Shown here: one piece after another, positions 30,909 to 56,830 of the stretch | How positions within the stretch are numbered: position 1 is the stretch's first letter | Layout: each line of letters opens with the position of its first letter | From: Streptomyces sp. NP160 | GTDB lineage: Bacteria > Actinomycetota > Actinomycetes > Actinomycetales > Quadrisphaeraceae | Length of the DNA: 58,204 nucleotides | Direction: 5' to 3' | Assembly (NCBI RefSeq): GCF_006335115.1 | Contig: NZ_VDMJ01000005.1 | Coordinates: forward strand, 40,504-98,707 | Translations under genes and position numbers: made by a program | Notes under the pieces: generated by a model | What the model saw: only the letters and a program-made list of their open reading frames with translations | Told to the model about the DNA's origin: nothing | The model's database searches: none

Positions 30909-31068
30909 GCCTCCCCATCGGCACGCGGCGCCGTGCTGTTGAGCGCGGTGCTCCGGGCCGGGCGTCGGCCGTCAGGGAGACCCCTGGTCACGGCACCGGG
31001 TCGTCGTCGGGGGCCGGCGCGGCCGGCGCGGCCGAACGGGTGCCCCGCAGGTCCTCGGTGGTGGGGCC

Positions 31069-40300: not shown

Positions 40301-41362
40301 TCAGCGCAGGAAGTCCATGAGGCTGGTGTTCAGCGTCTTGGACGTGACCTGCAGCGCCGCCTTGTAGGCGGTCTCCTGCAGGGACATCTGGATCATCACC
40401 GCGGGCAGGTCGACGTCCTCGACCTTGGACAGCTGGTCGGTGAGCTCGTACTTCGCCGACGAGGCCACCTGCTGGGCGCGCTCGATGCGGTTGGTGCGGG
40501 CACCGACGTCCGCGAGGCCCTCGAGCACCTTGCCGGACGCGCTGTCCAGCTCGTCGAGCAGCTCGGCCAGCTTCGAGGCGTGCTTGGCGGGGTCGGCCAC
40601 GGCTCCGGTGGACCCGGGGGTCTTGATCTCGGTGCTGATCTGCTGGAGCAGCGAGAAGACCGACTGGCCGGCGGCCACGCCGTTGCCGGCGACGTCCGCC
40701 CCGAGCATGGCGGCGCCGTTGCTGTCCACGCGGACGCTGCTCTGCGCGTCGACCTGGCGGGTCACCGGGGTGTCCGTGCCCAGCGGCACGACGGCGCTCG
40801 TGGCCGGGTCGGTGCCGCCCGCGGCGACGCCCGTGGCGCTCCACGTGTACACGGCGGGGGTGTACGTGGTGACCGCCGGCGGACCGGCGGAGATCGGCAC
40901 CTCGGGGCTGGTGAGGGTGACCGCTCGCGTGCCGCCGGACGTGCCGGCGAAGACGTTGCGGCCCTGGTACTGGGTGTTCGCCAGCGACAGCACGGTCTGG
41001 GTGATGCCGTCGAGCTCCACCGAGATGGCGGTGCGGGTGCCGTCGGTGTTGCTGCCCTCGCTGAGGGCCTTCACCACGAGGGTGCGCGCCGCGGTGATCT
41101 GGGAGCTCATCGTCTGCAGCGCGGTGTCCTGGACGTTGAGCCAGCTCGTGCCGTCGTTCGCCTGCAGGGCGTACTGGTCGTTGAGCCGCAGCTGCTGGCG
41201 CAGCGCGAGGCTCGAGACCGTGCCCGACGGGTCGTCCGACGGCTTGGTGATCTTCTTGCCGCTGGAGATCTGCGCCTGCAGCAGGCCCATCGTCTGGAGG
41301 TTGCCCTGGATCCGCGCCAGGGAGGCCTCCTGGATGGACCGGTGGGTCACGCGCTCGGTCAT
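40301..41362 (-). CDS. flgL: Flagellar hook-associated protein 3 (FlgL)
   Basis: A 353-residue FlgL, one of the two junction proteins between hook and filament. The N-terminal flagellin-like helix region (QEASLARIQGNLQTMGLLQAQISSG, KPSDDPSGTVSSLALRQQL) and C-terminal helix (VMIQMSLQETAYKAALQVTSKTLNTSLMDFL) are clear, flanking a variable middle domain. It is exported through the flagellar apparatus, hence no signal peptide. Starts four bases after flgK. Confidence 0.93.
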   Translation of the reverse strand: MTERVTHRSIQEASLARIQGNLQTMGLLQAQISSGKKITKPSDDPSGTVSSLALRQQLRLNDQYALQANDGTSWLNVQDTALQTMSSQITAARTLVVKALSEGSNTDGTRTAISVELDGITQTVLSLANTQYQGRNVFAGTSGGTRAVTLTSPEVPISAGPPAVTTYTPAVYTWSATGVAAGGTDPATSAVVPLGTDTPVTRQVDAQSSVRVDSNGAAMLGADVAGNGVAAGQSVFSLLQQISTEIKTPGSTGAVADPAKHASKLAELLDELDSASGKVLEGLADVGARTNRIERAQQVASSAKYELTDQLSKVEDVDLPAVMIQMSLQETAYKAALQVTSKTLNTSLMDFLR

Positions 41363-41366
41363 GTCA

Positions 41367-42830
41367 TCACCTGCCCACGAGTCCGGTCTTGTTGATGAGC
41401 GTGTCGAGCATCTCGTCGACCGCGGTCAGCACGCGCGCTGCGCCCTGGTAGGCGCGCTGGGCGGCGATGAGGTCGGCGCTCTCCTCGTCCAGCGAGACGC
41501 CGGCGGCGCCCTGCTGGTCCGCGATGGACGCCGTCAGCACCGCCTGGGCGGAGGTGGTGCGGGCCACGGCGGACGCGCTGTCGGCGCCCAGCTTGGAGAC
41601 GTAGCTGGCCCAGACGCTGTCGGGGCTGGTGGCGGAGGTGCCGACCGCGGCGATCGCAGCAGCGTTCGAGCCGTCCTTGACGCCCTTGCCCACCGAGCCC
41701 AGCGCCAGGTCCTTGCTGGTGAAGGAGGTGTCGATGGTGATGCTCTGGGCGGTGAAGGTGCCGGCCGGCACGTCACCGCTGAACAGCTTCTTGGGGGGCG
41801 TGACGCCGTTGCCGTCCACCGCCGTCGTCGCCGTCTGCAGGGCGTTGACCTGGGTGGCCAGGCTCTGCGCGACCGCGTCGTACTTGGCGGAGGCGCCCGG
41901 CAGCGTGGTGCGCAGCGCCTCCAGCTCACCGGTGATCTTGCCGCTGAACGGCGTGACGGTGTTGTCGCCGAGCTTCACCACGATGGTGCCGTTCGCGACC
42001 TCGGCCGGCGTCGCGCCGGCCGCCTGGCCCTTGAGGACGTCCGTCATGCTCGTGGGCGTCTGGCTGACCGTCAGCTTGGTGGTCAGGTTGCCCTGCACCA
42101 GCAGCCCGCCGCCCAGGTAGAGGTCGGTCTGCCCGTTGGCCGCGGCCTGGGTGGTGGCGCCGGTGAGCTCGACGATGCGGGTGACCAGCTGGTCGCGCCT
42201 GTCCTTGAGCTCGTTGGCGGCCCCGCCGGTGGTGACGGCCTTCTGGATCTGCTCGTTGAGCGTGGCGACGCTGCCGGCGAGGGTGTTGACCTCGTCGACG
42301 TCGGCGCTGACCTGCGTGCGCATCGTCGACCACTGGTCGTTGATGGTGTTCCAGGCCGCGTGGAGCGTGGTGACCACGTTCTGAGCCGCACCCAGCACCG
42401 ACTGGCGTGCCGCGGCGTCGGCGTTGGTGGACCCGACCTTGGTCGCGGCGTCCGCGAAGGCGGCCCACATCTTGTTGAGCTGGGTGGCCAGGCCGGCGTC
42501 GCTGGGCTCCTGCGTCAGCGACTCCAGGCCCGACAGCGTGTCGGCCCGCTGCTGCTGCAGGGCGTGGTCACCGGTCTGCACGTTGACGCGCTGGGACTGC
42601 ACGGCGTCGAAGGCACGGGTGATCTCGGCGACGCGCACGCCGCCCCCGGTGACGGGGTTGCCGGTCAGCATCCCGGAGCCGCCGGGTGCGTTGAGCATCT
42701 CGAGCTCGGCGCGCTGGCGGGTGTAGCCGGGGGTGTTGACGTTGGCGACGTTCTGCCCGATGACGTCCATCGCGCTGCGGTGGGCCCGCAGCGCCGTCAC
42801 CGCGGCGTTGATGCCGGAGAAGGTGCTCAT
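41367..42830 (-). CDS. flgK: Flagellar hook-associated protein 1 (FlgK)
   Basis: A 487-residue FlgK. The N-terminal rod-type motif INAAVTALRAHRSAMDVIGQNVANVNTPGYTRQ is diagnostic, and the C-terminal coiled coil is SLDEESADLIAAQRAYQGAARVLTAVDEMLDTLIN. It is the first hook-filament junction protein, exported by the flagellar type III system. It lies between the flgN-like chaperone gene and flgL, as in many flagellar clusters. Confidence 0.95.
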   Translation of the reverse strand: MSTFSGINAAVTALRAHRSAMDVIGQNVANVNTPGYTRQRAELEMLNAPGGSGMLTGNPVTGGGVRVAEITRAFDAVQSQRVNVQTGDHALQQQRADTLSGLESLTQEPSDAGLATQLNKMWAAFADAATKVGSTNADAAARQSVLGAAQNVVTTLHAAWNTINDQWSTMRTQVSADVDEVNTLAGSVATLNEQIQKAVTTGGAANELKDRRDQLVTRIVELTGATTQAAANGQTDLYLGGGLLVQGNLTTKLTVSQTPTSMTDVLKGQAAGATPAEVANGTIVVKLGDNTVTPFSGKITGELEALRTTLPGASAKYDAVAQSLATQVNALQTATTAVDGNGVTPPKKLFSGDVPAGTFTAQSITIDTSFTSKDLALGSVGKGVKDGSNAAAIAAVGTSATSPDSVWASYVSKLGADSASAVARTTSAQAVLTASIADQQGAAGVSLDEESADLIAAQRAYQGAARVLTAVDEMLDTLINKTGLVGR

Positions 42831-42864
42831 GGTCGGAGTCCTCGGGTTCGCGGGGGTGGGAGCG

Positions 42865-43401
42865 TCAGAGCGCTCGGTCGACGAGGTGCGCGGGCGCCGG
42901 CGACGTCGTGCGGCCCGTGGGGGCGTACGTCTCGAGCGTGCCGGTGAGGTTCAGCAGGGTCTCCCGCGTGGCGCGGGCGGCCACGGCGAGCACCTCGCGG
43001 TTCTGCGCGGAGACCCGGGCGATCTCCGAGGTCAGCTCCAGCAGCGCGTCGCGGTGGGAGGTCAGGATGGACGCCCACGGCCCGTCGGAGGCGGTGGCGA
43101 GGTCCTTGAGGGACGACGACGGCGGCATGCCGATGCTCGCGGCGTAGGCGTCGACCTCCATGCTGCGCAGCAGCTCGGTCTCTCGCAGCTGCTCCACGAG
43201 CAGCTGCACCTCGTGGGAGGCGTGCGCCACCCACCGGCTGCTGCCGCTGGCGAGGATCAGACGCTCCTCCTCCAGCTTGAACAGGAGCAGCTCCAGCTGC
43301 TCGCGCTCGCGCCACAGCACGTTGGAGACCTCGGCGACGCCCACGCGCCCTCCCATCGCTGCCGACTGCACCACGGCGGTGCGGTCCTTCACGCTGTCCA
43401 T
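42865..43401 (-). CDS. flgN: FlgN-like flagellar export chaperone
   Basis: A 178-residue helical protein with long heptad-rich segments (VAEVSNVLWREREQLELLLFKLEEERLIL, then HEVQLLVEQLRETELLR). Size, coiled-coil character and position directly upstream of flgK fit FlgN, the chaperone for FlgK and FlgL. The start is uncertain: ATG 43401 has no good binding site, and an internal ATG some 15 codons later would also give a plausible N-terminus. It diverges from fliA and is preceded by a sigma-28-like motif. Confidence 0.8.
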   Translation of the reverse strand: MDSVKDRTAVVQSAAMGGRVGVAEVSNVLWREREQLELLLFKLEEERLILASGSSRWVAHASHEVQLLVEQLRETELLRSMEVDAYAASIGMPPSSSLKDLATASDGPWASILTSHRDALLELTSEIARVSAQNREVLAVAARATRETLLNLTGTLETYAPTGRTTSPAPAHLVDRAL

Positions 43402-43531: not shown

Positions 43532-44461
43532 GTGACCGGATCGACGTCGTCGCCCTCCTCCCGGACCCCGCTCTCCCGCGGCGCCGTGGAGGAGCTCGTG
43601 ACCACCCACCTGCCGATCGTCGGCTACCAGGTGAACGAGATGCTCGTGCGCCTGCCGGGCCACGTGCTGCGCGACGACCTCGTCTCCGCGGGCATGGCGG
43701 CGCTCGCCGCCGCCGCCGCGAGCTTCGACGTGGCGACCGGCGTGCCGTTCGCCCGCTACGCCACGCTGCGCATCCGCGGCGCGCTGCTCGACGAGCTGCG
43801 CGGCATGGACTGGGCGCCCCGCGGCGCCCGCTCCCGGGCCCGTGCGCTGGAGGGAGTGGAGGAGCGGCTCACCACCGAGCTGGGCCGCAGGCCCTCCCGC
43901 GACGAGCTCGCCGCCGCCATGGGGTGCGCCCCCGATGAGGTCGACGCCGTCAAGAACGACGTCCAACGCGCCGTCGTCTCCCTCGACGCCTTCGACGGCG
44001 CCCTGTCCGACGTGCTCCCGCAGCGCGGCATCGGCCCGGAGGAGCACGTTCTCCAGGGCGAGCAGGTCCGCTACCTCAAGGCCGCCGTGCACGCGCTGCC
44101 GGAGCGGCTGCGCGTCGTCGTCGCCGGCCTCTACCTCGAGGACCGCTCCGTGGCCGACATGGCCGCCGAGCTGGGCGTCACCGAGTCGCGCATCAGCCAG
44201 CTCCGCACCGAGGCCCTCGGCCTCATGCGCGACGGGATGAACGCCTCCCTGGAGCCCACGATGGTCGCTCCGGTGGAGCGTCCCGGCGGCGTGGTCGACC
44301 GGCGCCGCCAGGCGTACTTCGCGGCCGTGGCCGCGCACGCGTCCGTCGCACCGACCGCCACGGCCGCAGTGGCGGCCGACTCGCTGGCCCCCGCGACGAC
44401 GACGGCGGCCGCCTCGCCCGTCCCGGCCCAGCGCCGCACCGGCTGGTCCGCTACGGGCTGA
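43532..44461 (+). CDS. fliA: Flagellar sigma factor FliA (sigma-28/WhiG family)
   Basis: A 309-residue sigma factor. Region 2 spans about 20-95 (LPIVGYQVNEMLVRLPGHVLRDDLVSAG, RYATLRIRGALLDELR), region 3 about 105-165, and region 4 with its helix-turn-helix near 210-230 (SVADMAAELGVTESRISQLRTEAL). It directs polymerase to flagellar late genes. A low-complexity Ala/Thr/Pro tail of about 75 residues extends beyond region 4, unusual for FliA. GTG 43532. It lies between the hook-associated genes and the glycan cluster, and the repeated TCA(A/G)-N15/16-GCCGA motif in this window is presumably its target. Confidence 0.92.
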   Translation: MTGSTSSPSSRTPLSRGAVEELVTTHLPIVGYQVNEMLVRLPGHVLRDDLVSAGMAALAAAAASFDVATGVPFARYATLRIRGALLDELRGMDWAPRGARSRARALEGVEERLTTELGRRPSRDELAAAMGCAPDEVDAVKNDVQRAVVSLDAFDGALSDVLPQRGIGPEEHVLQGEQVRYLKAAVHALPERLRVVVAGLYLEDRSVADMAAELGVTESRISQLRTEALGLMRDGMNASLEPTMVAPVERPGGVVDRRRQAYFAAVAAHASVAPTATAAVAADSLAPATTTAAASPVPAQRRTGWSATG

Positions 44462-44977: not shown

Positions 44978-45137
44978 GGGAGCCCTCCGTGGTCCCGGCC
45001 TCCAGCCTCCTGCTGGTGGTCACGGATCAGTCATCGGCATCGGCTGAGCGTTTGACCAGCGAGGTCACCCGATCGGCGCCGGTGACGCGGCTGCGCTCCG
45101 GAGCCGGTGGCTCTGGAGCGCAGCGGGTGGGAGGTCG

Positions 45138-46364
45138 TCAGCGGAAGCTGTCGAGCACGTGGGCGACGCGCTCCAGGGCCTCGCCCACGAAGTAGTGGTG
45201 GTTGCCGAGGTAGAAGCCGTTGTCGTGCACCTCGTCGGCGTGGACGAGGCTGCCGCTGGTGTCGGCGTTCAGGTGGCGCACGACGGGGTTGCGAGCGAAG
45301 TTCCCGGCGACGACCGGGCGGGTCTGCACGCCGACCTCCGCGAGCGCTGCGACGACGTCATCCCGCCGCCCGGCGAGGTGGTCCACCAGGACGCAGGAGA
45401 ACCCGAACCAGCTGCTCTCGCCGACCTCCTGCTGGATGCGCACGCCGGGCACACGGGACATGAGCTCCCGGAAGGCGTCTGCGTTGGCGCGGCGTGTCGC
45501 GACCATCGCCGGCAGCTTCTCGAGCTGGTGCAGGCCCACGGCGCCGGACATCTCCAGCGGCCGCACGTTGTAGCCCGGCAGCACGAACTGGAAGAGGTCG
45601 TGGAAGCCCTTGGAACCTGCGGGGCGCAGCGGGCTGCCCTCGGGGAGGTTCCGCGTCCAGCCGTGGGAGCGCAGTGACAGGAGCATGTGCGCGAGGTGCT
45701 CGTCGTCGGTGACGACGACCCCGCCCTCCATCGTGGAGATGTGGTGGGAGAAGAACGTGCTGAAGGTCCCCATGAGGCCGAACGTGCCTGCGCTGCGGTC
45801 GGCGAAGGTGGCGCCCATCGACTCGCAGTTGTCCTCGAGGACCACTAGCCCTTCCTCCGCTGCGAGCCGCTGCAGCTCGTCGAAGCGGTTGGGGTTGCCG
45901 AGGAGGTTGACAGCCATGATGCCCTTGGTGCGGTCGGTGCACCGGGCCCGCGCCGCTTCGATGTCGATGTTCAGCGTGTGCGGGTCGACGTCGACCAGTA
46001 CGGGACGCAGTCCGTACTGCGTGAGCGGGTAGTACGTCGTGGCCCAGGAGACCGCGGTGACGAGGACCTCGTCGCCGGGGTTGAGGTCGATCCGGTCGTC
46101 CAGGACGGCGGCGGCCACCATGAGGAGGTTGGCGCTGCTCCCGGAGTTGACCATGACGGCGTGGCGTGCGCCGAAGGTCTCTGCGAAGGCCTGCTCGAAG
46201 GCGCGCACGTGGGCGCCCATCGTGAACTGCCCGGATGCGATGACGTCCTGGAGGGCCTGCAGCTCTCGGTGGTCCCAGGTGCTCGTAGCCAGGGGGAGGC
46301 CGTGCTGCTGGACCTGCACCGGCGCCTCCGTGCGGGGGCCGGGCACCCTCACCAGAACGCTCAC
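45138..46364 (-). CDS. colD: ColD-like GDP-4-keto-6-deoxymannose 3-dehydratase
   Basis: A 408-residue PLP enzyme of the DegT/DnrJ fold. Where aminotransferases carry the PLP lysine, it has His (FFSHHISTMEGG), the hallmark of the sugar 3-dehydratases ColD and E1. It matches my memory of E. coli ColD along its length: LPLATSTWDHRELQALQDVI, FTMGAHV, AVSWATTYYPLTQYGL, NCESMGATFADRSAGTFGL, LPGYNVRPLEMSGAVG, GESSWFGFS. ColD removes the C3 hydroxyl of GDP-4-keto-6-deoxymannose on the way to GDP-L-colitose. GTG 46364 overlaps the stop of the ColC-like gene. GDP-mannose dehydratase and pyrophosphorylase genes are not in the window. Confidence 0.85.
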   Translation of the reverse strand: MSVLVRVPGPRTEAPVQVQQHGLPLATSTWDHRELQALQDVIASGQFTMGAHVRAFEQAFAETFGARHAVMVNSGSSANLLMVAAAVLDDRIDLNPGDEVLVTAVSWATTYYPLTQYGLRPVLVDVDPHTLNIDIEAARARCTDRTKGIMAVNLLGNPNRFDELQRLAAEEGLVVLEDNCESMGATFADRSAGTFGLMGTFSTFFSHHISTMEGGVVVTDDEHLAHMLLSLRSHGWTRNLPEGSPLRPAGSKGFHDLFQFVLPGYNVRPLEMSGAVGLHQLEKLPAMVATRRANADAFRELMSRVPGVRIQQEVGESSWFGFSCVLVDHLAGRRDDVVAALAEVGVQTRPVVAGNFARNPVVRHLNADTSGSLVHADEVHDNGFYLGNHHYFVGEALERVAHVLDSFR

Positions 46365-47350
46365 GCCGGCACCAGCGATCCGACGTACTTCTCGTAGGTG
46401 GCGAGCATGCCGTCCGCCAGGCTCGTCGCGGGAGCCCAGCCGAGGGCGCGGGCCCTGGAGCTGTCCATGAGCTTCTGGTGCATGCCCTTCGGCATGCTCG
46501 TGTCGTAGACGAACTCGCCCTCGTAGCCGACGACGGACCGGGCCACCTCGTAGTACTCGGTCACCGAGTGGTCGACCCCCGCTCCGAGGTTGAGGACCGG
46601 CGGCAGCAGCTCGAGGCGGGGCAGGCTCCCGAGGATCCAGCTCGCCACGTCACCGGCGTAGGTGAACTCGCGACGGGCGGTGCCGTCTCCCCAGATCGTG
46701 ACGGTCGGTGAGCCGGCGACCTTGGCCGCGTGCACCTTGGCGATCGCGGCAGCGACAAGGTGCGCGCGGTCAGTGGAGAAGTCGTCGCCTGGACCGTAGA
46801 GGTTGGAGGCGACGAGGGCGCGGTAGGCGACACCGTGCTGGGCGGAGGCGAACTGGCACAGGCGCGTGCCCGCCAGCTTGGCGAGCGCGTAGCCCTCGTT
46901 GGTCGGCTCGAGGGGGGCCTGGAGCAGGTCGGTCTCGACGAGCGGCTGCCGGTGGTCGCGCGGGTAGGTGCAGGAGCTGCCCAGGTAGACCAGGCGCTCC
47001 ACGCCGGCGTCCAGCGCTGCGCGGAAGAGCGAGGTGTCGATCGCGAGGTTGTCGAGCAGGAAGCCGGTCTGGTCAGCGGCGTTGGCCTTGATCCCGCCGA
47101 CGCGCGCCGCGCCGTGCACGATGACGTCGGGCCGGGTCCGGCCCAGCAGATCACGGGTCGCCCGCGGGTCGCTCAGGTCTGCGTCGGACCGCGTGGCGAA
47201 GACGACTTCGAGGGCTCCGCCGCCCCTCGCGACGACTGAGCGCAGCGCACTGCCGAGGAGCCCGGCGCTGCCGGTCACGAGGACCCTGGAGACCGCCGGC
47301 AGCGTTTGCTGGGAGTCCCGGCGTAGCTCGACAGTTCGTGATGCTCCCAC
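46361..47350 (-). CDS. GDP-L-colitose synthase / GDP-L-fucose synthase-like (ColC-like) SDR
   Basis: A 329-residue extended SDR. Cofactor motif VTGSAGLLGSAL is near residue 24, then HGAARVGGIKANA, the active-site SSCTYP, and Y-x3-K in YALAK. EPTNEGYALAKLAGTRLCQ and NLYGPGDDFS are typical of GDP-fucose synthases, and ColC (GDP-colitose synthase, C5 epimerase and C4 reductase) belongs to the same branch. Because it is coupled to a ColD homologue, ColC is the better guess than fucose synthase. GTG 47350 was chosen for AGGAGG five bases upstream. A sigma-28 motif precedes it. Confidence 0.78.
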   Translation of the reverse strand: MGASRTVELRRDSQQTLPAVSRVLVTGSAGLLGSALRSVVARGGGALEVVFATRSDADLSDPRATRDLLGRTRPDVIVHGAARVGGIKANAADQTGFLLDNLAIDTSLFRAALDAGVERLVYLGSSCTYPRDHRQPLVETDLLQAPLEPTNEGYALAKLAGTRLCQFASAQHGVAYRALVASNLYGPGDDFSTDRAHLVAAAIAKVHAAKVAGSPTVTIWGDGTARREFTYAGDVASWILGSLPRLELLPPVLNLGAGVDHSVTEYYEVARSVVGYEGEFVYDTSMPKGMHQKLMDSSRARALGWAPATSLADGMLATYEKYVGSLVPA

Positions 47351-47400
47351 GGGTTCCTCCTGGCGGTCAGTGTTCTCGCGCCTCCAGCGCTCCTCCAGGT

Positions 47401-47427
47401 GCATCGGCCGAACGGGCGAATCCTTGA
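47401..47427 (-). promoter_or_regulatory. Sigma-28-type promoter for the colC-colD operon
   Basis: Minus strand: TCAA (47427-47424), 15 bases, GCCGATGC (47408-47401), about 50 bases before the GTG of the ColC-like gene. It is arranged back to back with a matching plus-strand motif at 47443-47470. Confidence 0.62.
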
Positions 47428-47442
47428 GCCAGGGCCGAGACC

Positions 47443-47470
47443 TCAAGCCCGGAAGCGCCTGGGCCGAAGG
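47443..47470 (+). promoter_or_regulatory. Sigma-28-type promoter for the GT11 transferase gene
   Basis: TCAA (47443-47446), 16 bases, GCCGAAGG (47463-47470). The -10 ends six bases before the ATG at 47477, so the mRNA would be leaderless or nearly so. GAAGGAG overlaps the -10 and could otherwise serve as a ribosome binding site from an upstream start. Confidence 0.55.
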
Positions 47471-47476
47471 AGTGAC

Positions 47477-48394
47477 ATGACGATCGCTCAGGTCGAGGGA
47501 GGCCTGGCCAGCCAGATGTTCGGCTACGCCGCTGCACGCCGGCTCGCGCTGAAACACGGGGCCGACGTGCTGATCGACCCGCGGAACTACCGGACGTACA
47601 CGAAGTTCCAGCTGGAGCTGCACCACTTCGACGTCCAGGCCGTCCTCCTGAGCCCCGAGCAGGCCGACGAGATCTGCGGTCGGCTGGACGAAGCCGTGAC
47701 AGTGGTCAGACCTCGCCACCTGCACGTCGACCAGGCCGTGCTGGAGCTGGACAGACCCCACGTGCTCATGAAGGGCAACTACGTCAGCGAGGACTACTTC
47801 CACGACGTCGAGGACGTCCTGCGCCGGGACTTCCGCCGAACGAGCCTCCCCACCGAGTATGCAGCGGGAGCGCGCGCGGCCATCGACGCTCACCGGGCCC
47901 GGGGCGGGGCTCCCGTCGCCGTCCACGTCAGGCGCGGCGACTACGTCTCAGAGGCGCACACGAACCGCTTCCACGGCACGTGCACCCTCGACTACTACGC
48001 CCGTGCGCGTGACGTCATCACCCGCACCGTCGAGGACCCGTGGTTCTTCGTCTTCTCCGACGACCCCGAGTGGTGCAAGACCCGATTCTCGGGCTCGCGG
48101 ACCACGGTCTTCCACGCCCCACCGGGAACGCCTCCCGTGGAGGACATGCTCCTCATGGCCGCGTGCGACCACCACGTCATCGCCAACAGCACCTACAGCT
48201 GGTGGGGCGCCTGGCTGGGGAAGACCGACCGGCAGGTCGTCATCGGCCCCCGACCCTTCCTCGCCGACCGCACGCACAACACCGACGACATCCTCCCGAG
48301 GCACTGGCTCACCCTGGGGGCGAGTCCTTCGCCCGGCCATGGGGCCGGTGCAGCGCGGGCGGACGACCCTCGCGTCGCGGTTGGGGCGCGCTGA
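47477..48394 (+). CDS. GT11-family glycosyltransferase (fucosyl/colitosyltransferase-like)
   Basis: A 305-residue GT11 enzyme. The N-terminal GGLASQMFGYAAARRLAL, the donor-binding HVRRGDYV at residues 150-157, FVFSDDPEWCK, and IANSTYSWWGAWLG are the family signature of alpha-1,2-fucosyltransferases. GT11 members also occur in colitose-containing O-antigen clusters, so with ColC/ColD beside it a GDP-colitose donor is plausible. It is cytosolic, with no signal or membrane helix. The C-terminal 25 residues are low-complexity. It starts a plus-strand group of four sugar genes. Confidence 0.85.
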   Translation: MTIAQVEGGLASQMFGYAAARRLALKHGADVLIDPRNYRTYTKFQLELHHFDVQAVLLSPEQADEICGRLDEAVTVVRPRHLHVDQAVLELDRPHVLMKGNYVSEDYFHDVEDVLRRDFRRTSLPTEYAAGARAAIDAHRARGGAPVAVHVRRGDYVSEAHTNRFHGTCTLDYYARARDVITRTVEDPWFFVFSDDPEWCKTRFSGSRTTVFHAPPGTPPVEDMLLMAACDHHVIANSTYSWWGAWLGKTDRQVVIGPRPFLADRTHNTDDILPRHWLTLGASPSPGHGAGAARADDPRVAVGAR

Positions 48395-48501: not shown

Positions 48502-48975
48502 GTGGTTTTCGCCGGTACCGAGCCCAGGCTCGACGTGGCAGCGCCTCGTCGAGCGGCTGGTGAGCCGCCGCTGAGCCGGTGCCACGTGGTGGACCTGCCG
48601 GTGGTGAACGACCCCCGTGGCAACCTGACCGCCATCGAGGCGGGCGTCCACGTGCCCTTCGACATCCAGCGCGTGTACTACCTCTACGACGTGCCGGGTG
48701 GTGCGCGGCGGGGTGGGCACGCCCACCGCGGGCTGCACCAGCTGATCGTCGCCATGTCCGGCAGCTTCGACGTGCTCCTCGACGACGGGTTCAGCAAGAA
48801 GCTGGTCCACCTGAACCGCTCCTACAAGGGTCTCCTGGTCACTCCCATGGTGTGGCGCGAGATCGACAACTTCTCCTCGGGGTCGGTCTGCATGGTGCTG
48901 GCCTCCGCGCCCTACGACGAGGCCGACTACTACCGCGACTACCACGACTTCCTGGCCGATGTCGTCGGCGGTTGA
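48502..48975 (+). CDS. FdtA/QdtA-like dTDP-hexulose 3,4-ketoisomerase
   Basis: A 157-residue cupin of the WxcM/FdtA type. VVNDPRGNLTAIEAG near residue 34, RVYYLYDVPGGARRGGHAHR, and the later VTPMVWREIDNFSSGSVCMVLAS are typical; the His pair in GGHAHR is the expected active site. It moves the keto group of dTDP-4-keto-6-deoxyglucose from C4 to C3 so that an amino group can be put on C3. GTG 48502 follows GAGGAGAAG. The stop lies 17 bases inside the next gene, the matching aminotransferase. Confidence 0.85.
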   Translation: MVFAGTEPRLDVAAPRRAAGEPPLSRCHVVDLPVVNDPRGNLTAIEAGVHVPFDIQRVYYLYDVPGGARRGGHAHRGLHQLIVAMSGSFDVLLDDGFSKKLVHLNRSYKGLLVTPMVWREIDNFSSGSVCMVLASAPYDEADYYRDYHDFLADVVGG

Positions 48976-50086
48976 CGTCGACCGCGTCCCGTTCCTGGAC
49001 CTCGGCGCCGCCCACGACGAGGTTCGCGCTGACCTGGCCGCGGCCTTCACGGCCGTCGTGGACCGGGGCGTCTACGTCCGGGGCGCCGAGTGCGAGCTCT
49101 TCGAGCAGGAGTGGGCGGCGTACTGCGGGACCGAGCACTGCGTCGGCACGGGGAACGGCCTGGACGCGCTGACCCTCGCCCTCCGCGCGCTGGGGGTTGG
49201 GCCCGGTGACGAGGTCATCGTCCCGGGACACACCTTCATCGCGACGTGGCTGGCGGTGGAGGCCGTGGGCGCCGTCCCCGTCGGCGTGGACGTGCTCCCC
49301 GACCGGCCCGTCATCGACCCGCGGGCGGTGGCTGCAGCAGTGACGCCGCGGACCGCGGCGGTCGTCCCGGTCCACCTGTACGGGCACGTGGCGCCGATGG
49401 CGGAGCTCTGCGCCATCGCCGAGCGCGCCGGCATCGCCGTCGTCGAAGACGCGGCCCAGGCCCACGGCGCCGAGGCCGACGGGATCAGGGCTGGGGCGTT
49501 CGGCCACGCGGCGGCCTTCAGCTTCTACCCCGGCAAGAACCTCGGAGCACTGGGGGACGGAGGTGCGGTGACCACCCGAAGCGCCGAGGTGGCAGACCGC
49601 GTCCGGATGCTCGCGAACTACGGGTCGCGCACCAAGTACCACCACGAGTCATCCGGCGTGAACTCGCGCCTGGACGAGCTTCAGGCGGCGTTCCTGCGCG
49701 TGAAGCTGCCCAAGCTCGACGACTGGAACGCGCGCCGCCGCACCACCGCCGCCGTCTACGAGGACGCGCTCAGGGCAGCGGGCGGTGCAGTGCGGACCGT
49801 GCCCGTCGCGGCCGGGACGACCAGTTCCCACCACCTCGAGGTGGTCCGTCTGCCGGAGCGGGACCGGGTGCGTGGGCAGATGGACCGGGCGGGCGTGGAG
49901 TGCTCCGTCCACTACCCGGTGCCGCCGCACCTGTCCGGCGCGTACTCCGGTCGCTCCCATCCCGCGGGTGGCCTCCCCGTCTCCGAGGCCTGGTGCCGGG
50001 ACGTGCTGAGCCTCCCCACGGGTCCGGGCCTCACGGTCCAGCAGGCCGAGCGAGTGGTCCACACCCTTCTGGAGGTCGCCCGGTGA
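48959..50086 (+). CDS. FdtB/QdtB-like dTDP-3-keto-sugar aminotransferase
   Basis: A 375-residue DegT-family PLP aminotransferase with the normal lysine (FSFYPGKNLGALGDGG near residue 190). VPFLDLGAAHDEVRADL at the start, GTGNGLDALTLALRALG, and EDAAQAHGAEADG are usual in FdtB/QdtB enzymes, which make dTDP-3-amino-3,6-dideoxyhexoses (Fuc3N or Qui3N). It overlaps the ketoisomerase gene and is overlapped by the formyltransferase gene, a natural three-enzyme set. D-galacto or D-gluco product cannot be told from sequence here. Confidence 0.87.
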   Translation: MSSAVDVDRVPFLDLGAAHDEVRADLAAAFTAVVDRGVYVRGAECELFEQEWAAYCGTEHCVGTGNGLDALTLALRALGVGPGDEVIVPGHTFIATWLAVEAVGAVPVGVDVLPDRPVIDPRAVAAAVTPRTAAVVPVHLYGHVAPMAELCAIAERAGIAVVEDAAQAHGAEADGIRAGAFGHAAAFSFYPGKNLGALGDGGAVTTRSAEVADRVRMLANYGSRTKYHHESSGVNSRLDELQAAFLRVKLPKLDDWNARRRTTAAVYEDALRAAGGAVRTVPVAAGTTSSHHLEVVRLPERDRVRGQMDRAGVECSVHYPVPPHLSGAYSGRSHPAGGLPVSEAWCRDVLSLPTGPGLTVQQAERVVHTLLEVAR

Positions 50087-50733
50087 GCGCACCTCGCGGT
50101 GTGGTGCTGCTGGGCAAGGGCGACCTCGCCGTGCGGCTGGGGGAGTGGCTCCTGGAGCGCGACGACTTCCACCTGAAGGCCGTGGTGCCTGTGGTGCCCG
50201 AGCCGTCCTGGACGGCGTCGCTGGGCGACTGGGCCCGGTCGAGGGGCGTACCGGTGGCGGAGAGCGGCGCCGCCGCCGACGCCTTCGTGCTGCCGGGGGT
50301 TCCTGAGCGCCTGGAGCTCGCGATCTCAGTGTTCTACGACCGCCTGCTGCGCCCGTCCTTCCTCGAGCACTGCGACCGCGCCATCAACCTCCACAACGGG
50401 CCTCTGCCCCGCTACCGAGGCGTGTCACCGATCGCGTGGGCGCTGGAGAACGGCGAGACCTCCCACGGGGTGACCCTCCACGACATCGCGCCAGGCGTGG
50501 ACGACGGAGACGTCATCGCCCAGACCACGTACAGCCTCTATCCGGAGGTCGACGAGGTGGTCGACGTCTACGGGCGGGCTCTGGATCACGGCTGGCTACT
50601 GCTGGTGCACTCGCTGCCGCGGCTGGACCAGCTCCGCCCACGTCCGCAGGACGACTCCCTGGCGACCACTTACCGGCGCAGTGACGACCACCGCCTCATC
50701 GAGCGCGCGGGGCTGCGACGTCCCGGACGCTGA
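50083..50733 (+). CDS. Sugar N-formyltransferase-like protein
   Basis: A 216-residue formyl_trans_N protein. INLHNGPLPRYRGVSPIAWAL near residue 105 has the Asn and His of the catalytic triad, and DIAPGVDDGDVIAQ supplies the Asp. The domain is the same as in methionyl-tRNA formyltransferase, but the short length and position after FdtA/FdtB-like genes match nucleotide-sugar N-formyltransferases that use N10-formyltetrahydrofolate. The predicted product is a dTDP-3-formamido-3,6-dideoxyhexose. GTG 50083 overlaps the aminotransferase stop. Confidence 0.83.
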   Translation: MSAPRGVVLLGKGDLAVRLGEWLLERDDFHLKAVVPVVPEPSWTASLGDWARSRGVPVAESGAAADAFVLPGVPERLELAISVFYDRLLRPSFLEHCDRAINLHNGPLPRYRGVSPIAWALENGETSHGVTLHDIAPGVDDGDVIAQTTYSLYPEVDEVVDVYGRALDHGWLLLVHSLPRLDQLRPRPQDDSLATTYRRSDDHRLIERAGLRRPGR

Positions 50734-50739
50734 AGCAGG

Positions 50740-50767
50740 CCCCCGCCGCGGTCAGCCGCGGTGGGGG
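50740..50767. terminator. Hairpin between convergent sugar and glycosyltransferase operons
   Basis: CCCCCGCCGCGG (50740-50751) pairs with CCGCGGTGGGGG (50756-50767), 12 bp with one G-U pair and loop TCAG. It spans the stop codon of the minus-strand gene, so it can end transcripts from both sides. Confidence 0.65.
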
Positions 50768-52587
50768 TCCGCCGGTCCGCTCCCAGCCCCAGCGGCGCGA
50801 GCCAGCCAGGACGCGAGGACAGCGGCGTCGTCGCCCGTCCGGAGCATCCCCTGGAGCCGGGAGCCGTCGGGCGGGAGCAAGCCGAGGTCATCCACGACCT
50901 CCACCGCCACCTCCGCCGCGTCCGCCAGATCCCACCCAGCGAGGTCTGCGCAGGTCTGCTCCCAGACCTCGTGGTCGGGTCGCCCGAGGGTGGGCACGGT
51001 CCAGCGCGCCAGTTCCCGGTGGCCCCGCGTCCGCTGCAGAGCCGCCCCCACGACCCCCAGGTGATGACGGGCCTCCGCCACGACCGCCGCGTAGGCGGTG
51101 GCGGTGGTCAGCGGCGTCCCGTCCCAGCGGCGCACGCCGGGACCGGCGGCCGAGGTGCCGTCTGCCAGGGCCCGCTCCAGGAGGAGGCCGGGCGAGGACA
51201 GGTCGGCAGCGTCGACGGAGCCCGCCCGGAGCGCTGCACCGGCGCGGGCGGCGAGGTCCAGGTCGTCGATGCCCCGCAGCGCGTCCAGCGCGGCGTCCAG
51301 GTCTCCCTGCAGGGCACGGCTGACCGCCAGGTTCACGACGTCGCCATCCACGGGGTCCAGCTCGCGGGCCCGGAGGTACAGGTGCTCGGCCGCGGCCGGT
51401 GAGGTGGTCAGGAGGCGGTTGCCGAGCGCGAGCGCGGCCTCGCGCCAGACCCGGGGGTTCCGGTTCCCGTGCAGCTCGGGGAAGAAGCTCGGCAGGTCGC
51501 TCGTGGCCACCCACTCGGTTCGCACGCGCTCGGCCTCACGGGTCGTGCGCGTCAAGCCAGACTCCGAGGTGGAGAGTCCGGCTGCGTGGACCCGGTAGCG
51601 CACGAGCCCGCGCGGCAGGTAGCGGAAGCGCACTCGCCCCGCAGACTTCAACCAGAAGTGGTAGTCGCAGACGAGGCCCTGTTCGAAACCACCCAGGCGA
51701 TCGTGGACGCTTCGCCGGACAGTCGCCGAAGGGTGGCCCACGAAGTTGTGCGCCACGACCTCACGGGCGGCGCTGAGGTCCGTGTAGGCGGCGGGCAGGT
51801 GCCAGGAAAGGCCACCGGGCCGGCTCGAGGCATCCATGATCTCGGCCGCGCCGTGGCAGACGCCGAGTTCGGGATCCGCGTCGAAGGCCTCCACCTGGGC
51901 GCTCAGCCGGTGAGGGAGCATAGCGTCGTCGCCACCCAGCCAGGCGAGCAGCTCGCCGCGCGAGGCCGCGAGCAGGCGGTTGAACACCAGGTCGAGCCGA
52001 CCCGTGCGGCCGATGTTCGGCTGTGTCATCACGCTGACGCGAGCGGACTCGTACTTGCGAGCCACGCTCAGCGATCCATCGGCTGACCCGTCGTCGAGCA
52101 CGACGACCTCGTAGTCGTCGTAGTCCTGCTGCAGGACGGACGTGATCGTCTCGTCGAGGTAGCGAGCCTGGTCGTGAACCGGGATGAGCACGCTCACGCG
52201 CGGCGAGCGCTCACGCACCCTGAGGGGGTGGGCGGCGTCCGGCGTCCGCACCACTTGCGAGGCGCTGTCTCGCGCCTGGACCTCGAGCTGGTGGAGGAGG
52301 TCGTCCGCGGCGACCACCGTGACCTCAGCCTGGCCCGGTGGGTCTTCGAGCGGAACCTCGGTGAGGACGCGGAGGGGACCGACGGCTTCGCTCCACCAGC
52401 TCAGCACCTCCGACACCTCACCGGAGAGGCAGGAGCCGGCAGCTGCCGCACTGTCGAAGCCACCGACGGCCCCGAGCCCGAGCACTTCCTGCAGCTTCAA
52501 CACCGCGGCGCCCAGCGGTGCGCGCGGATCCTCCGCCCCACCTCCGACGACCAGCAGGAACCGGTCGCCTCCGACAGGGCCGCTCAC
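50752..52587 (-). CDS. GT2 glycosyltransferase with N- and C-terminal extensions
   Basis: A 611-residue protein. A GT2 (GT-A fold) domain starts near residue 130 (VSVLIPVHDQARYLDETITS, VVVLDDGSADGS) with acidic metal-binding GGDDAM near 212. The first 125 residues are of unknown type, and the C-terminal half (about 390-611) is helical and TPR-like (AAEHLYLRARELDPVDGDVVNLAVSRAL). Such GT2-plus-TPR proteins often glycosylate proteins. GTG 52587 overlaps the stop of the upstream GT2 gene by four bases. It is the last of four coupled transferase genes. Confidence 0.85.
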   Translation of the reverse strand: MSGPVGGDRFLLVVGGGAEDPRAPLGAAVLKLQEVLGLGAVGGFDSAAAAGSCLSGEVSEVLSWWSEAVGPLRVLTEVPLEDPPGQAEVTVVAADDLLHQLEVQARDSASQVVRTPDAAHPLRVRERSPRVSVLIPVHDQARYLDETITSVLQQDYDDYEVVVLDDGSADGSLSVARKYESARVSVMTQPNIGRTGRLDLVFNRLLAASRGELLAWLGGDDAMLPHRLSAQVEAFDADPELGVCHGAAEIMDASSRPGGLSWHLPAAYTDLSAAREVVAHNFVGHPSATVRRSVHDRLGGFEQGLVCDYHFWLKSAGRVRFRYLPRGLVRYRVHAAGLSTSESGLTRTTREAERVRTEWVATSDLPSFFPELHGNRNPRVWREAALALGNRLLTTSPAAAEHLYLRARELDPVDGDVVNLAVSRALQGDLDAALDALRGIDDLDLAARAGAALRAGSVDAADLSSPGLLLERALADGTSAAGPGVRRWDGTPLTTATAYAAVVAEARHHLGVVGAALQRTRGHRELARWTVPTLGRPDHEVWEQTCADLAGWDLADAAEVAVEVVDDLGLLPPDGSRLQGMLRTGDDAAVLASWLARAAGAGSGPADPHRG

Positions 52588-53747
52588 GCCGGAGCCATCG
52601 CCGCAGCGGTCACGTCGGCAGTCCCCTCGGGCCGGGCGAGGAGGTCGCCGAGCCGACCCAGGTCGAGCCGACCACCGGCCCTGACCGTCGCCAACCGCCG
52701 TCCGCTGACGCGGGCGCGGAGGAAGCGGAGGACGTCTCCGGGGGGCACGTCCCCTGTGGCGAAGGCCTGCACGTCGCCCTCGAGGGCGTCGACGAGACCG
52801 CGCCATGCACGGAGGTCAGGCACGGCGAGGACGAGCTCGACCCCTGAGGAGCTTCCGAGGTGGACGGCGAAGTCCTGGACGGACTCCACCGCTCCGTCAG
52901 TGTCAGAGCCCTCGCAGAGGATGACGACCGACAGCTCGTAGGGGTAGGCGTCCAGACGCGCGCTGGAGCCCGCCAGCATCTGACCGCGGGCCGCCGCCAG
53001 GGGAGAGGAGCGAGGCACGGGGTGCTTGGCGTAGATCGCCTCGAGGGCGGTGTGGAACCTGAACTGCTCGCGGACGGACTGGTTGCCGGTCCCCGAGCGC
53101 CAGCGGTACTCGGCCGTCGGCACGGGCACGTGGCGGAAGGGGAGCAGCGCCGACAGCCGGATCCACAGCTCCCAGTCCTCGAGGACCCGGAGGTCGGGAT
53201 CCAGGCCCCCGGACGCGCGGACCGCGGCCAGGGGGACGAGCGCTGACATGCCGACGATGTAGTTCTCCACGAGCAGCCGCTCGGCGTCGAAGTCGCTGGC
53301 ACCGAAGACCTCGCGCTGCACGACCCTGCCCGCCGAGTCCTCGGCGACCCGGACGCAGTGGGAGTAGACCACCGCTCCGGTGTCGCCGGCGGCGGCGTCG
53401 ACCAGCGAGGTGAGGTGGTGCGGGTAGGCGATGTCGTCGTCGTCGAGGAAGTTGACGAAGGTCCCGCGCGCCAGTCCGAGCGCGGTGTTGAGAGCCCCGC
53501 AGCGGCCCGCGTTGGTCGTGTGCTCGGCCAGGGTGATCGACAGGCTCGAGGAGAACTCGCCCACGACGTCGTCGACGGGAGTGCCGGCATCGTTGACGAC
53601 GACGACCTCAAAGTCCTCGAAGGTCTGCGCGGCCAGGCTGGCCAGCGCGCGTCGGAGGAGCTCCGGGCGGTTGTAGGTCGGCATCACCACCGAGACGACG
53701 GGCGGAGGGCCCGTCACCGCAGCGCGCGCCACGTGCTGCTCGCTCAT
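52584..53747 (-). CDS. GT2 glycosyltransferase
   Basis: A 387-residue protein with an N-terminal GT2 domain (VVSVVMPTYNRPELLRRALAS at about 17-37, VVVVNDAG, NFLDDDDIAYP with the acidic motif, RVLEDWELWIRLSAL). The C-terminal 120 residues form a second region without recognised motif. ATG 53747. Its start and stop each overlap the neighbouring transferase genes by four bases. The sugar donor is not identifiable, but the cluster offers GDP-colitose-like and dTDP-formamido sugars. Confidence 0.88.
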   Translation of the reverse strand: MSEQHVARAAVTGPPPVVSVVMPTYNRPELLRRALASLAAQTFEDFEVVVVNDAGTPVDDVVGEFSSSLSITLAEHTTNAGRCGALNTALGLARGTFVNFLDDDDIAYPHHLTSLVDAAAGDTGAVVYSHCVRVAEDSAGRVVQREVFGASDFDAERLLVENYIVGMSALVPLAAVRASGGLDPDLRVLEDWELWIRLSALLPFRHVPVPTAEYRWRSGTGNQSVREQFRFHTALEAIYAKHPVPRSSPLAAARGQMLAGSSARLDAYPYELSVVILCEGSDTDGAVESVQDFAVHLGSSSGVELVLAVPDLRAWRGLVDALEGDVQAFATGDVPPGDVLRFLRARVSGRRLATVRAGGRLDLGRLGDLLARPEGTADVTAAAMAPA

Positions 53748-54658
53748 CGCTCCGCCCCCACGAGCGCGCGCCCGAGCAGCCGCTCGAAGTCCTCGTGCAC
53801 GTCCTCGGAGCGCCACAGGCGCAGCATCTCGCGCGAGGTGTGCATGAAGGCGGGCGTGTCGAAGACGTCGTGGAAGAAGTCTCCCGGCCGGCGCGGGTCG
53901 AACCAGTGGACGAGCGGGAGGAAGCGGCGGTCGGCCGGGCTGGTCCAGCTCCGCGCCTCGGAGACGAGCGGGGTCCCGCACGAGAGGACCAGGGACGCGC
54001 GCACCTGCTCGAAGCGGCTGGCCTCGTAGGCGCTGACGTTGAGTACCGCGCGCGCCCGGCGCACGAGGGCGTCCCGCTCGGGACCGTAGACGGGGCGCTG
54101 GAGCACCGTGACCTCCTGTCCGGCGCGCTCCACGGCGTGCAGCACCTCCAGCCGTCGCGGCGTGAGGCAGCCGACGAAGAGCAGGTCGATGTCGCGGTCC
54201 TCCAGGGGCGTCACGTGCGCCCCGAGGTGGGCCACCGGCCCGAGCCGCACCAGCGTCACCGACCCGGTGGCGCCCGCGTACGCGGGCAGGTTGTCGGGGT
54301 GGTAGTCCACGACTGCCGCGCAGCGCAGCAGGTCGAGGTAGCCCGAGGGCAGCGCTGCGCCTCCCGGGCCGAGCTGCTCGAGGTTCACGAGCACGCACTC
54401 GTACTGGTCGAGCAGGGTTCGGGGGAAGCCCAGGTGGGCGCCGAAGATGTAGTTGACAGCGCCGGCGACCAGGGTGTTGGAGGAGGCTGTCACGTGCGCG
54501 CCGGCGCGCTCGAACTCCTCCTGGAAGAAGACCAGCGGGTCGAGCAGCGCGCCGGAGTGGGCGTAGCCCGCCGGCTGCACCAGGCACAGGTGCACGGGTC
54601 TGACCGGCCCCGCCGCCCCTGACTGACCACGGTCGGGGCTCGCGTCGTCCACGGTCAT
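53744..54658 (-). CDS. Probable GT-B glycosyltransferase of unassigned family
   Basis: A 304-residue soluble protein. CLVQPAGYAHSGALLDPLVFFQEEF near residue 30 looks like the first Rossmann half, and LLFVGCLTPRRLEVLHAVERAG, VLNVSAYEASRFEQVRASLVLSCGTPLVSE like the C-terminal half of a GT-B enzyme (similar in layout to CgeB-type proteins). I could not place it in a numbered GT family. ATG 54658 overlaps the stop of the upstream GT2 gene. Its place in the four-gene operon supports a role in the same glycan. Confidence 0.68.
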   Translation of the reverse strand: MTVDDASPDRGQSGAAGPVRPVHLCLVQPAGYAHSGALLDPLVFFQEEFERAGAHVTASSNTLVAGAVNYIFGAHLGFPRTLLDQYECVLVNLEQLGPGGAALPSGYLDLLRCAAVVDYHPDNLPAYAGATGSVTLVRLGPVAHLGAHVTPLEDRDIDLLFVGCLTPRRLEVLHAVERAGQEVTVLQRPVYGPERDALVRRARAVLNVSAYEASRFEQVRASLVLSCGTPLVSEARSWTSPADRRFLPLVHWFDPRRPGDFFHDVFDTPAFMHTSREMLRLWRSEDVHEDFERLLGRALVGAER

Positions 54659-56667: not shown

Positions 56668-56674
56668 AGGGGAC

Positions 56675-56702
56675 TTGTCGGCCACAGGGGGCGCTGGCTT
56701 GA
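56675..56702 (-). promoter_or_regulatory. Sigma-28-type promoter for the glycosyltransferase operon
   Basis: Minus strand: TCAA (56702-56699), 16 bases, GCCGACAA (56682-56675). It is among the closest matches to GCCGATAA in the window. The GTG of the first transferase is seven bases beyond the -10, which implies a leaderless message. Confidence 0.65.
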
Positions 56703-56740
56703 GCCGAACGGGTGTCACACGGATGCCGAGCGAAAAACCT

Positions 56741-56767
56741 TCAGCGGTCGTGACCCCCGGCCGATGG
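56741..56767 (+). promoter_or_regulatory. Sigma-28-type promoter for fliC
   Basis: TCAG (56741-56744), 15 bases, GCCGATGG (56760-56767), 63 bases before the flagellin ATG. Flagellin genes are classic FliA targets, so this serves as the reference for the other motifs. Confidence 0.7.
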
Positions 56768-56830
56768 ACCTGGTGATCGCCCACGGACGGGCATCGCAGC
56801 ACCACCCCACCAGTCATGGAGGAATTCGAC

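Follow-up and report, generated by a model that had tools for sequence, protein, structure and literature searches.

A colC-colD gene pair among the late flagellar genes of Streptomyces sp. NP160: a predicted GDP-L-colitose branch for flagellin glycosylation

Introduction

What would genes for colitose synthesis be doing among the flagellar genes of an actinobacterium? The question is raised by a stretch of 58,204 nucleotides from Streptomyces sp. NP160 (the window; it lies on contig C132, part of a genome of 4.77 Mb at 98% completeness), in which an initial annotation had placed a ColD-like gene, a short-chain dehydrogenase/reductase (SDR) gene coupled to it and a divergent gene for a glycosyltransferase (GT) of family GT11 between fliA and fliC, had called a colitose-type sugar unexpected in an actinobacterium, and had suggested its use on flagellin. 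Five WhiB matches in this genome, a family that among 14 control genomes gave matches in Corynebacterium alone, and a contig of a genome from the same order (G575) that is identical to one of a named Bifidobacteriaceae MAG (metagenome-assembled genome; L058) mark the organism as an actinobacterium. A passage in one review names ColD from pathogenic Gram-negatives (PMC8987622). A survey of predicted sugar pathways, where it discusses prevalence across phyla, gives L-colitose as absent from the TACK group (PMC7725333), and because L-colitose is treated there across phyla, colitose genes outside the Gram-negatives have probably been counted before. Judged by titles and the openings of abstracts, we found no report on colitose in an actinobacterial or a flagellar setting. 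Our reading of the locus, to which we assign a probability of roughly 0.7, is that colC and colD make guanosine diphosphate (GDP)-L-colitose for a flagellin glycan and are expressed with the late flagellar genes.

Results

The colD product is a full-length ColD-type protein of 408 residues, with FFSHHISTMEGG, in which an SHH motif stands in place of the Lys motif of pyridoxal 5'-phosphate (PLP)-dependent enzymes; read by eye from the alignment columns, the first His of SHH aligns with the Lys of the neighboring DegT aminotransferase (Table 1). The best match among solved structures is ColD/WbdK (2gms; 438.7 bits over residues 23–401), with E1 (3bcx) at 184 bits, perosamine synthase at 140 and aminotransferases at no more than 140, and the protein is 51% identical to ColD of Escherichia coli O55:H7 over 383 residues. 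Among the best 80 of 479 ColD relatives, taken from named genomes (hereafter the 80 loci), SHH precedes TMEGG in 77 and SHQ in one, the other two rows having no usable readout. A quick tree was built from 46 rows, namely 28 of the 80 loci, E. coli ColD, the window, five further genomes, five RfbH-type proteins (three of them scanned and named as such by NCBIfam, at 713–749 bits against a cut-off of 423) and six aminotransferases. All 35 ColD rows, E. coli O55 included, lie on one side (support 99), and the five RfbH/E1 rows (support 97) and the six aminotransferases are separate from them. Nine actinobacterial ColD rows, among them the window, two Arthrobacter and metagenome-assembled genomes (MAGs) of Microbacteriaceae and Bifidobacteriaceae, form one set (support 97), which disfavors a recent transfer from a Gram-negative, though a tenth actinobacterial row, G252, falls outside it. 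The sequence evidence thus confirms the assignment of the gene at 45138–46364 as colD with His for the PLP lysine, as initially annotated.

The gene coupled to colD overlaps it by 4 nt, as in E. coli O55 (9865/9868 in L134), and starts with a GTG at 47350 preceded by AGGAGG (alternative start at 47278). Against the Fcl model, which has a cut-off of 500 bits, its SDR product scores 297, close to E. coli ColC at 304 and far from E. coli Fcl at 551. In a quick tree of 58 rows (26 from the 80 loci; support by the Shimodaira–Hasegawa-like approximate likelihood ratio test only), it falls in a set of 27 colD-adjacent SDRs to which E. coli ColC also belongs (support 95), apart from Fcl; the Fcl set comprised 24 of 28 Fcl-like genes from the class genomes other than G000 (the genome studied here) and G252, four having been dropped for want of a clean frame. 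Both results place the SDR, described at first as ColC- or fucose-synthase-like, with ColC. The Ser-Cys, YxxxK and His residues are invariant (S101/S102, C103, Y130, K134 and H173 in A1 numbering), and these Ser, Cys, Tyr, Lys and His have reductase/epimerase roles carried over from Fcl. No second ColC/Fcl-like SDR scored above 60 bits in the genome. The colD-adjacent SDRs of L053, L064, L081, L100, L124 and G054 fell on the Fcl side of the tree; colD may have had its neighboring SDR replaced on more than one occasion.

Upstream of colC stands a site resembling promoters of the sigma factor FliA (sigma-28). Initial promoter patterns gave one match (0.34 expected) and eight matches (1.13 expected). 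An element common to the upstream regions, [CT]TCA-N16/17-[AG][CT]CGAT, occurs six times in the window, where 0.55 were expected from 100 first-order chains (maximum 4) and 0.77 from 60 third-order chains (maximum 3); the six sites precede a DUF4383 gene, cheA, cheB, the flgN-type gene, colC and fliC, the flgN-type site running into the start codon predicted for that gene. Those before the DUF4383 gene, cheA and cheB are at 30943(-), 31068(+) and 35293(+). Because the pattern had first been noticed in a set that included colC, a matrix was trained independently on seven flagellin-gene sites, chosen with the element pattern, of G002, G003, G006 and G008, genomes with no ColD match. By this matrix the colC site ranks first in the window, and none of 30 shuffled windows reaches its score. 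The colC site of G004 is first in its 20 kb, and that of G001 ties with a site before a GT2 gene, a third equal-scoring site preceding an island gene without a Pfam match. The region upstream of colC scores 22.7 in all three genomes of the genus that carry colCD vs 1.96–12.2 in six other actinobacteria, and a score of 22.7 is reached by 3 of 3000 segments of 300 bp drawn at random from the window, sites included. Of six regions upstream of gmd, the GDP-mannose dehydratase gene, five score 2.9–9.0 and that of G025 scores 20.0; no site of 16 or more was found in the 20 kb around the gmd of the genome studied here, and G054 and G252, neither of which gave a flagellin match, have no FliA-like site upstream of colC. 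G025 belongs to another family and has flagellins, and a second such site (22.7) lies on the same 7.8-kb contig. This contig (L131, G025:C112), which ends at 7.8 kb, carries its sites at 7493(-) before gmd-colC-colD and at 2186(+) before a GT2-like gene, which suggests a second flagellar colitose island. The weaker site before the GT11 gene of the window has the same -10 variant, with a spacer one base longer, as the sites before two G025 flagellin genes. Further high-scoring sites lie at L017 3565(+), just right of the window, and at L020 2405(-), at the rmlA locus. Judging from these sites, colC and colD may be expressed with the flagellar regulon.

The position of the pair is kept in related genomes. 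It lies between fliA and fliC in three of the six genomes of the genus (G000, G001 and G004), which are all that carry colCD; G003 and also G008, the latter from another genus of the family, have shorter fliA–fliC islands without it, G002 has fliA and fliC on different contigs, and G005 yielded just a sigma-factor match of lower strength and a single flagellin-like one. A GT2 gene adjoins fliC in all six islands read (G000, G001, G002, G003, G004 and G008). The islands of G000 and G004 contain GT11 and that of G001 contains GT10 (29.6 bits; solved alpha-1,3-fucosyltransferases at E 6e-9), and the scanned island genes of G002, G003 and G008 include neither family. Among the genes scanned, several of them without a match, islands lacking colCD carry Epimerase_2, GFO_IDH or methyltransferase genes: L168, L169 and L171 are fliA–fliC or fliC-side islands with Epimerase_2, GFO_IDH plus an aminotransferase, and methyltransferases. 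The island of G004 (L125 14495–16578) has an ArnB/PerA-like aminotransferase and a formyltransferase instead of the FdtA set of the window. The location among late flagellar genes is thus kept while the neighboring sugar and transferase genes vary, and flagellar glycans probably differ between related species. The ratio of nonsynonymous to synonymous substitution rates is 0.15 for colD and 0.17 for colC in comparison with G004, and 0.18 and 0.34 with G001; both genes are under purifying selection and are better kept than flagellin or the GmaR-like gene.

Precursor supply was sought elsewhere in the genome, as the initial annotation had proposed, and candidates for both gmd and manC were found. 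The gmd gene is on contig C165 and scores 400 bits, just below the NCBIfam cut-off of 415; its product shares 45% identity with E. coli Gmd and 28% with a gmd-like gene of Campylobacter coli, and so looks hexose-like. It is present in all six genomes of the genus (91–100% identity) and in G007 and G010 (80–83%), and no match at E 1e-60 was found in the family genomes G006, G008, G009, G011 and G012. A second gmd-like gene in tandem with it (L001 2481–3473, G000:C165), conserved in the genus, is possibly a GDP-4-keto-6-deoxymannose reductase. At C46:20457 a ManC candidate was identified by its matches to solved mannose-1-phosphate guanylyltransferases. Eight nucleotidyltransferase-domain matches were found in the genome, and the six whose starts were read are presumably, by their look, RmlA, GlgC (two), ManC, GalU and GlmU.

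ColD is rare in actinobacteria and not foreign to them. Counting the genome studied here each time, it was found in 5 of 59 relatives (E 1e-60), 2 of 394 class genomes (G000 and G252; 1e-70) and 7 of 396 order genomes (1e-90), and its presence in the two Arthrobacter genomes and in the MAGs of Microbacteriaceae and Bifidobacteriaceae, together with the nine-row set, removes the surprise initially attached to it. A plasmid search returned ColD in 13 records from six genera, which we take to be alphaproteobacterial. Across the 80 loci, colD has an SDR gene within 600 bp in 78 cases and gmd within 4 kb in 76; the exceptions include two short contigs (L052, L058), two loci with the gene further off (L051, L122) and one gmd-like gene below the score limit (L124). 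Clustering of gmd with colCD is hence usual for the pathway, not defining.

The gene order around the pair is flgL, flgK, flgN, fliA, colD, colC, GT11, fdtA, aminotransferase, formyltransferase, two GT2 genes, a gene for a protein without Pfam match, the GmaR-like GT2 gene and fliC, so that the flanking fliA and fliC and the divergent GT11 gene are where they had been annotated (Table 1). The GT11 protein and its counterpart in the E. coli O55 cluster are 29.7% identical, and the gene of the latter (in L134) we take to be that of the E. coli O55:H7 alpha-1,2-colitosyltransferase, reportedly a described enzyme; the window protein is a candidate colitosyltransferase (WbgN-like) by sequence. The aminotransferase at 48959 probably acts, to judge from its best structural matches, on a deoxythymidine diphosphate (dTDP)-linked 3-amino sugar, and the genes from 48502 to 50733 likely form a route to a dTDP-3-formamido-3,6-dideoxyhexose, a second sugar of the same island. 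The product of 53744–54595 has a 45% identical stretch in G004, adjoining the GT2 gene next to fliC. A strong hairpin right after colD (45040–45140(-), z -4.5), with no T run in the folded stretch, is a possible terminator.

Table 1. Genes and promoter-like sites of the colCD region, in window positions
Feature	Position	Strand	Remarks
flgL, flgK (PF22638), flgN-type	40301..43401	-	flgL and flgN named by position
fliA	43532..44461	+	sigma-70-family factor, regions 2, 3, 4; name from flagellar surroundings
colD	45138..46364	-	PLP/pyridoxamine 5'-phosphate (PMP)-dependent GDP-4-keto-6-deoxymannose 3-dehydratase; His replaces PLP Lys
colC	46361..47350	-	GDP-L-colitose synthase-type SDR (5-epimerase/4-reductase)
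FliA-like promoter upstream of colC	47402..47428	-	CTCAAG-N14-GCCGATG; top score in window
Weaker FliA-like site before GT11	47442..47469	+	CTCAAG-N15-GCCGAAG; 7th in window
GT11 (alpha-1,2-fucosyltransferase family)	47477..48394	+	candidate colitosyltransferase; PF01531 93 bits, Pfam E 2e-26
FdtA/QdtA-type 3,4-ketoisomerase	48502..48975	+	
DegT aminotransferase	48959..50086	+	catalytic Lys; best solved: transaminase 2oga, 7b0d, QdtB
Sugar N-formyltransferase-like protein	50083..50733	+	
GT2 glycosyltransferase	50752..52503	-	
GT2 glycosyltransferase	52584..53747	-	
Protein without Pfam match	53744..54595	-	
GmaR-like GT2	54655..56685	-	adjoins fliC; GmaR is best solved match
FliA-like promoter of fliC	56740..56766	+	
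fliC flagellin	56816..58123	+	

Discussion

In the scheme that we infer, in which enzyme activities, product and linkage are predictions, ManC would supply GDP-mannose and Gmd, encoded at a separate place in the genome and part of the genus core, would dehydrate it to GDP-4-keto-6-deoxy-D-mannose. colC and colD would form the committed branch from there to GDP-L-colitose: ColD, charged as PMP by glutamate, would take off the C3 hydroxyl, and ColC would epimerize C5 and reduce C4. The GmaR-like GT2 may start the glycan on flagellin, its presumed acceptor, and GT11 (GT10 in a sister species), if it has the predicted specificity, would transfer colitose onto that glycan, with the FliA-type promoter expressing colC-colD together with the late flagellar genes. 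Since the pair lies in the flagellar region behind a FliA-like promoter, colitose probably decorates flagella. The flagellar use initially proposed therefore gains support from the FliA-like promoters upstream of colC in three of three genomes and from the GmaR-like GT2 beside fliC, and neither the tree nor the search for gmd and manC, two of the checks proposed with the initial annotation, refuted that reading. A dideoxyhexose on Gram-positive flagellin was predicted earlier, for flagellar islands of Clostridium (PMC13317340). What is new here is the location of colCD between fliA and fliC behind a FliA-like promoter in all three carriers of the genus, together with the site before gmd-colC-colD in G025. 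On balance we favor a wider view, in which colitose was recruited in flagellated Actinomycetales (at least one genus and G025) as a flagellin sugar under sigma-FliA control, placed by GT11 or GT10, and the cassette of the genus shed gmd and draws on the core pool of GDP-4-keto-6-deoxymannose.

Several observations weigh against this reading, and they bear on the enzymes, on the sugar and on its destination. That colD encodes instead a sugar aminotransferase, or the RfbH/E1 enzyme of a cytidine diphosphate pathway, could be argued from the DegT fold of its product and from RfbH being the top NCBIfam match by name, but its RfbH score, 265 bits, falls short of the 423-bit cut-off and is close to the 263 bits of E. 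coli ColD. The cysteine cluster CYCGPGCDNTC, in E1/RfbH the ligands of the iron–sulfur cluster, is present in the single RfbH row of the alignment and in none of four ColD rows, the window and E. coli included. A ColD without the PLP Lys cannot act as an ordinary aminotransferase, ColD scores lie far above those of aminotransferases, and given also the 2gms match and the placement in the tree we regard both identities as extremely improbable. The identity of the SDR is less sharply drawn by pairwise comparison, which does not separate ColC from Fcl (37.8% to E. coli ColC vs 37.1% to E. coli Fcl), and the Fcl side of the SDR tree holds, besides all Fcl, 6 of 33 colD-adjacent SDRs; the enzyme might thus be a GDP-L-fucose synthase or a plain 4-reductase, with GDP-fucose or another GDP-3,6-dideoxyhexose as product. 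We consider this quite improbable in view of the tree and the ColC-like score against the Fcl model, the overlap with colD and the conserved Cys and His of epimerization, and because the genome yielded no other SDR of this type at more than 60 bits. ColD homologs of Campylobacter jejuni HS:5/HS:11 that are 62–67% identical to two characterized ColD act on a GDP-heptose, according to one study (PMC10440746), so similarity to ColD does not fix the sugar, and the window protein is 51.8% identical to the ColD of C. coli, presumed to be of the heptose type, and 51.2% to that of E. coli. A GDP-6-deoxy-4-keto-heptose substrate, with a 3,6-dideoxyheptose as product, is nevertheless very unlikely here, given that Gmd is so much closer to the E. 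coli enzyme than to the gmd-like gene of C. coli and that the six nucleotidyltransferases look like the enzymes listed above, no search having been aimed at a heptose guanylyltransferase.

The remaining doubts concern supply and use. gmd lies outside the colCD cassette, vs within 4 kb in 76 of the 80 loci, and its presence in all six genomes of the genus, with or without colCD, means that it did not arrive with the cassette. Some island genes of G002, G003 and G008 were left unscanned and four scanned genes of G002 had no Pfam match, so a transferase may have been missed there. FliA-like sites also occur away from flagellar genes. The rmlA locus of the genome studied here (L020) has one scoring 20.0 within 12 kb; G054, a genome that gave no flagellin match, has one scoring 19.1 on the strand opposite gmd, some 265 bp from the 3' end of that gene; and the 80 loci, which differ in composition, have two of at least 20 in their 1.18 Mb. 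GDP-L-colitose could be made for a wall or capsule polysaccharide, its genes having inserted between fliA and fliC by chance; none of the 80 loci matched flagellar probes within the available DNA (56 of them span at least 15 kb), and a GT11 gene, as polysaccharide loci may have, is present in 24. We think this unlikely, if conceivable, because FliA-like promoters precede colC in three of three genomes of the genus and gmd-colC-colD in G025, a GmaR-like transferase adjoins fliC, and the location is kept though the neighboring genes differ.

If colitose does serve as a flagellin sugar, a sugar best known from Gram-negative O-antigens moves to actinobacterial flagella, and a complete and testable link runs from sugar synthesis to flagellar gene control, while known biochemistry is not overturned. 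The reading predicts a single mass increment of 130.06 Da, a knock-out phenotype and dependence on the sigma factor, and the actinobacterial ColC, GT11 and GT10 enzymes would be candidates to make and place colitose.

Among the closest known systems, colC-colD of E. coli O55:H7 encodes both enzymes (51% identity for ColD, 38% for ColC) in the order seen in the window, with the genes likewise overlapping by 4 nt and a GT11-type gene present in the cluster; the window pair differs in being actinobacterial, in having no adjacent gmd, manC or manB and in standing between fliA and fliC with a FliA-like promoter. The flagellar glycosylation islands of Clostridium likewise have variable sugar genes among Gram-positive flagellar genes, GT2-TPR transferases and a predicted 3,6-dideoxyhexose, although paratose is named there for one strain and the word colitose is absent from the main text of the paper (PMC13317340). 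The GT2 domain of the 54655–56685 protein, adjoining fliC, matches GmaR best (83.5 bits), although over residues 161–349 of 676 only and with SunS close behind at 77 bits; GmaR is a flagellin O-GlcNAc transferase. The gmd-colC-colD cassettes of Arthrobacter and other actinobacteria (L045, L047, G025, G252 and G727) encode ColD proteins 52–63% identical to that of the window, those of L045, L047 and G025 falling within its ColD set, G252 outside it and G727 having been left out of the tree. These cassettes, unlike the pair in the window, keep gmd inside, and neither gmd nor colC is preceded by a FliA-like promoter in L045, L047, G252 and G727, whereas G025 has one before gmd.

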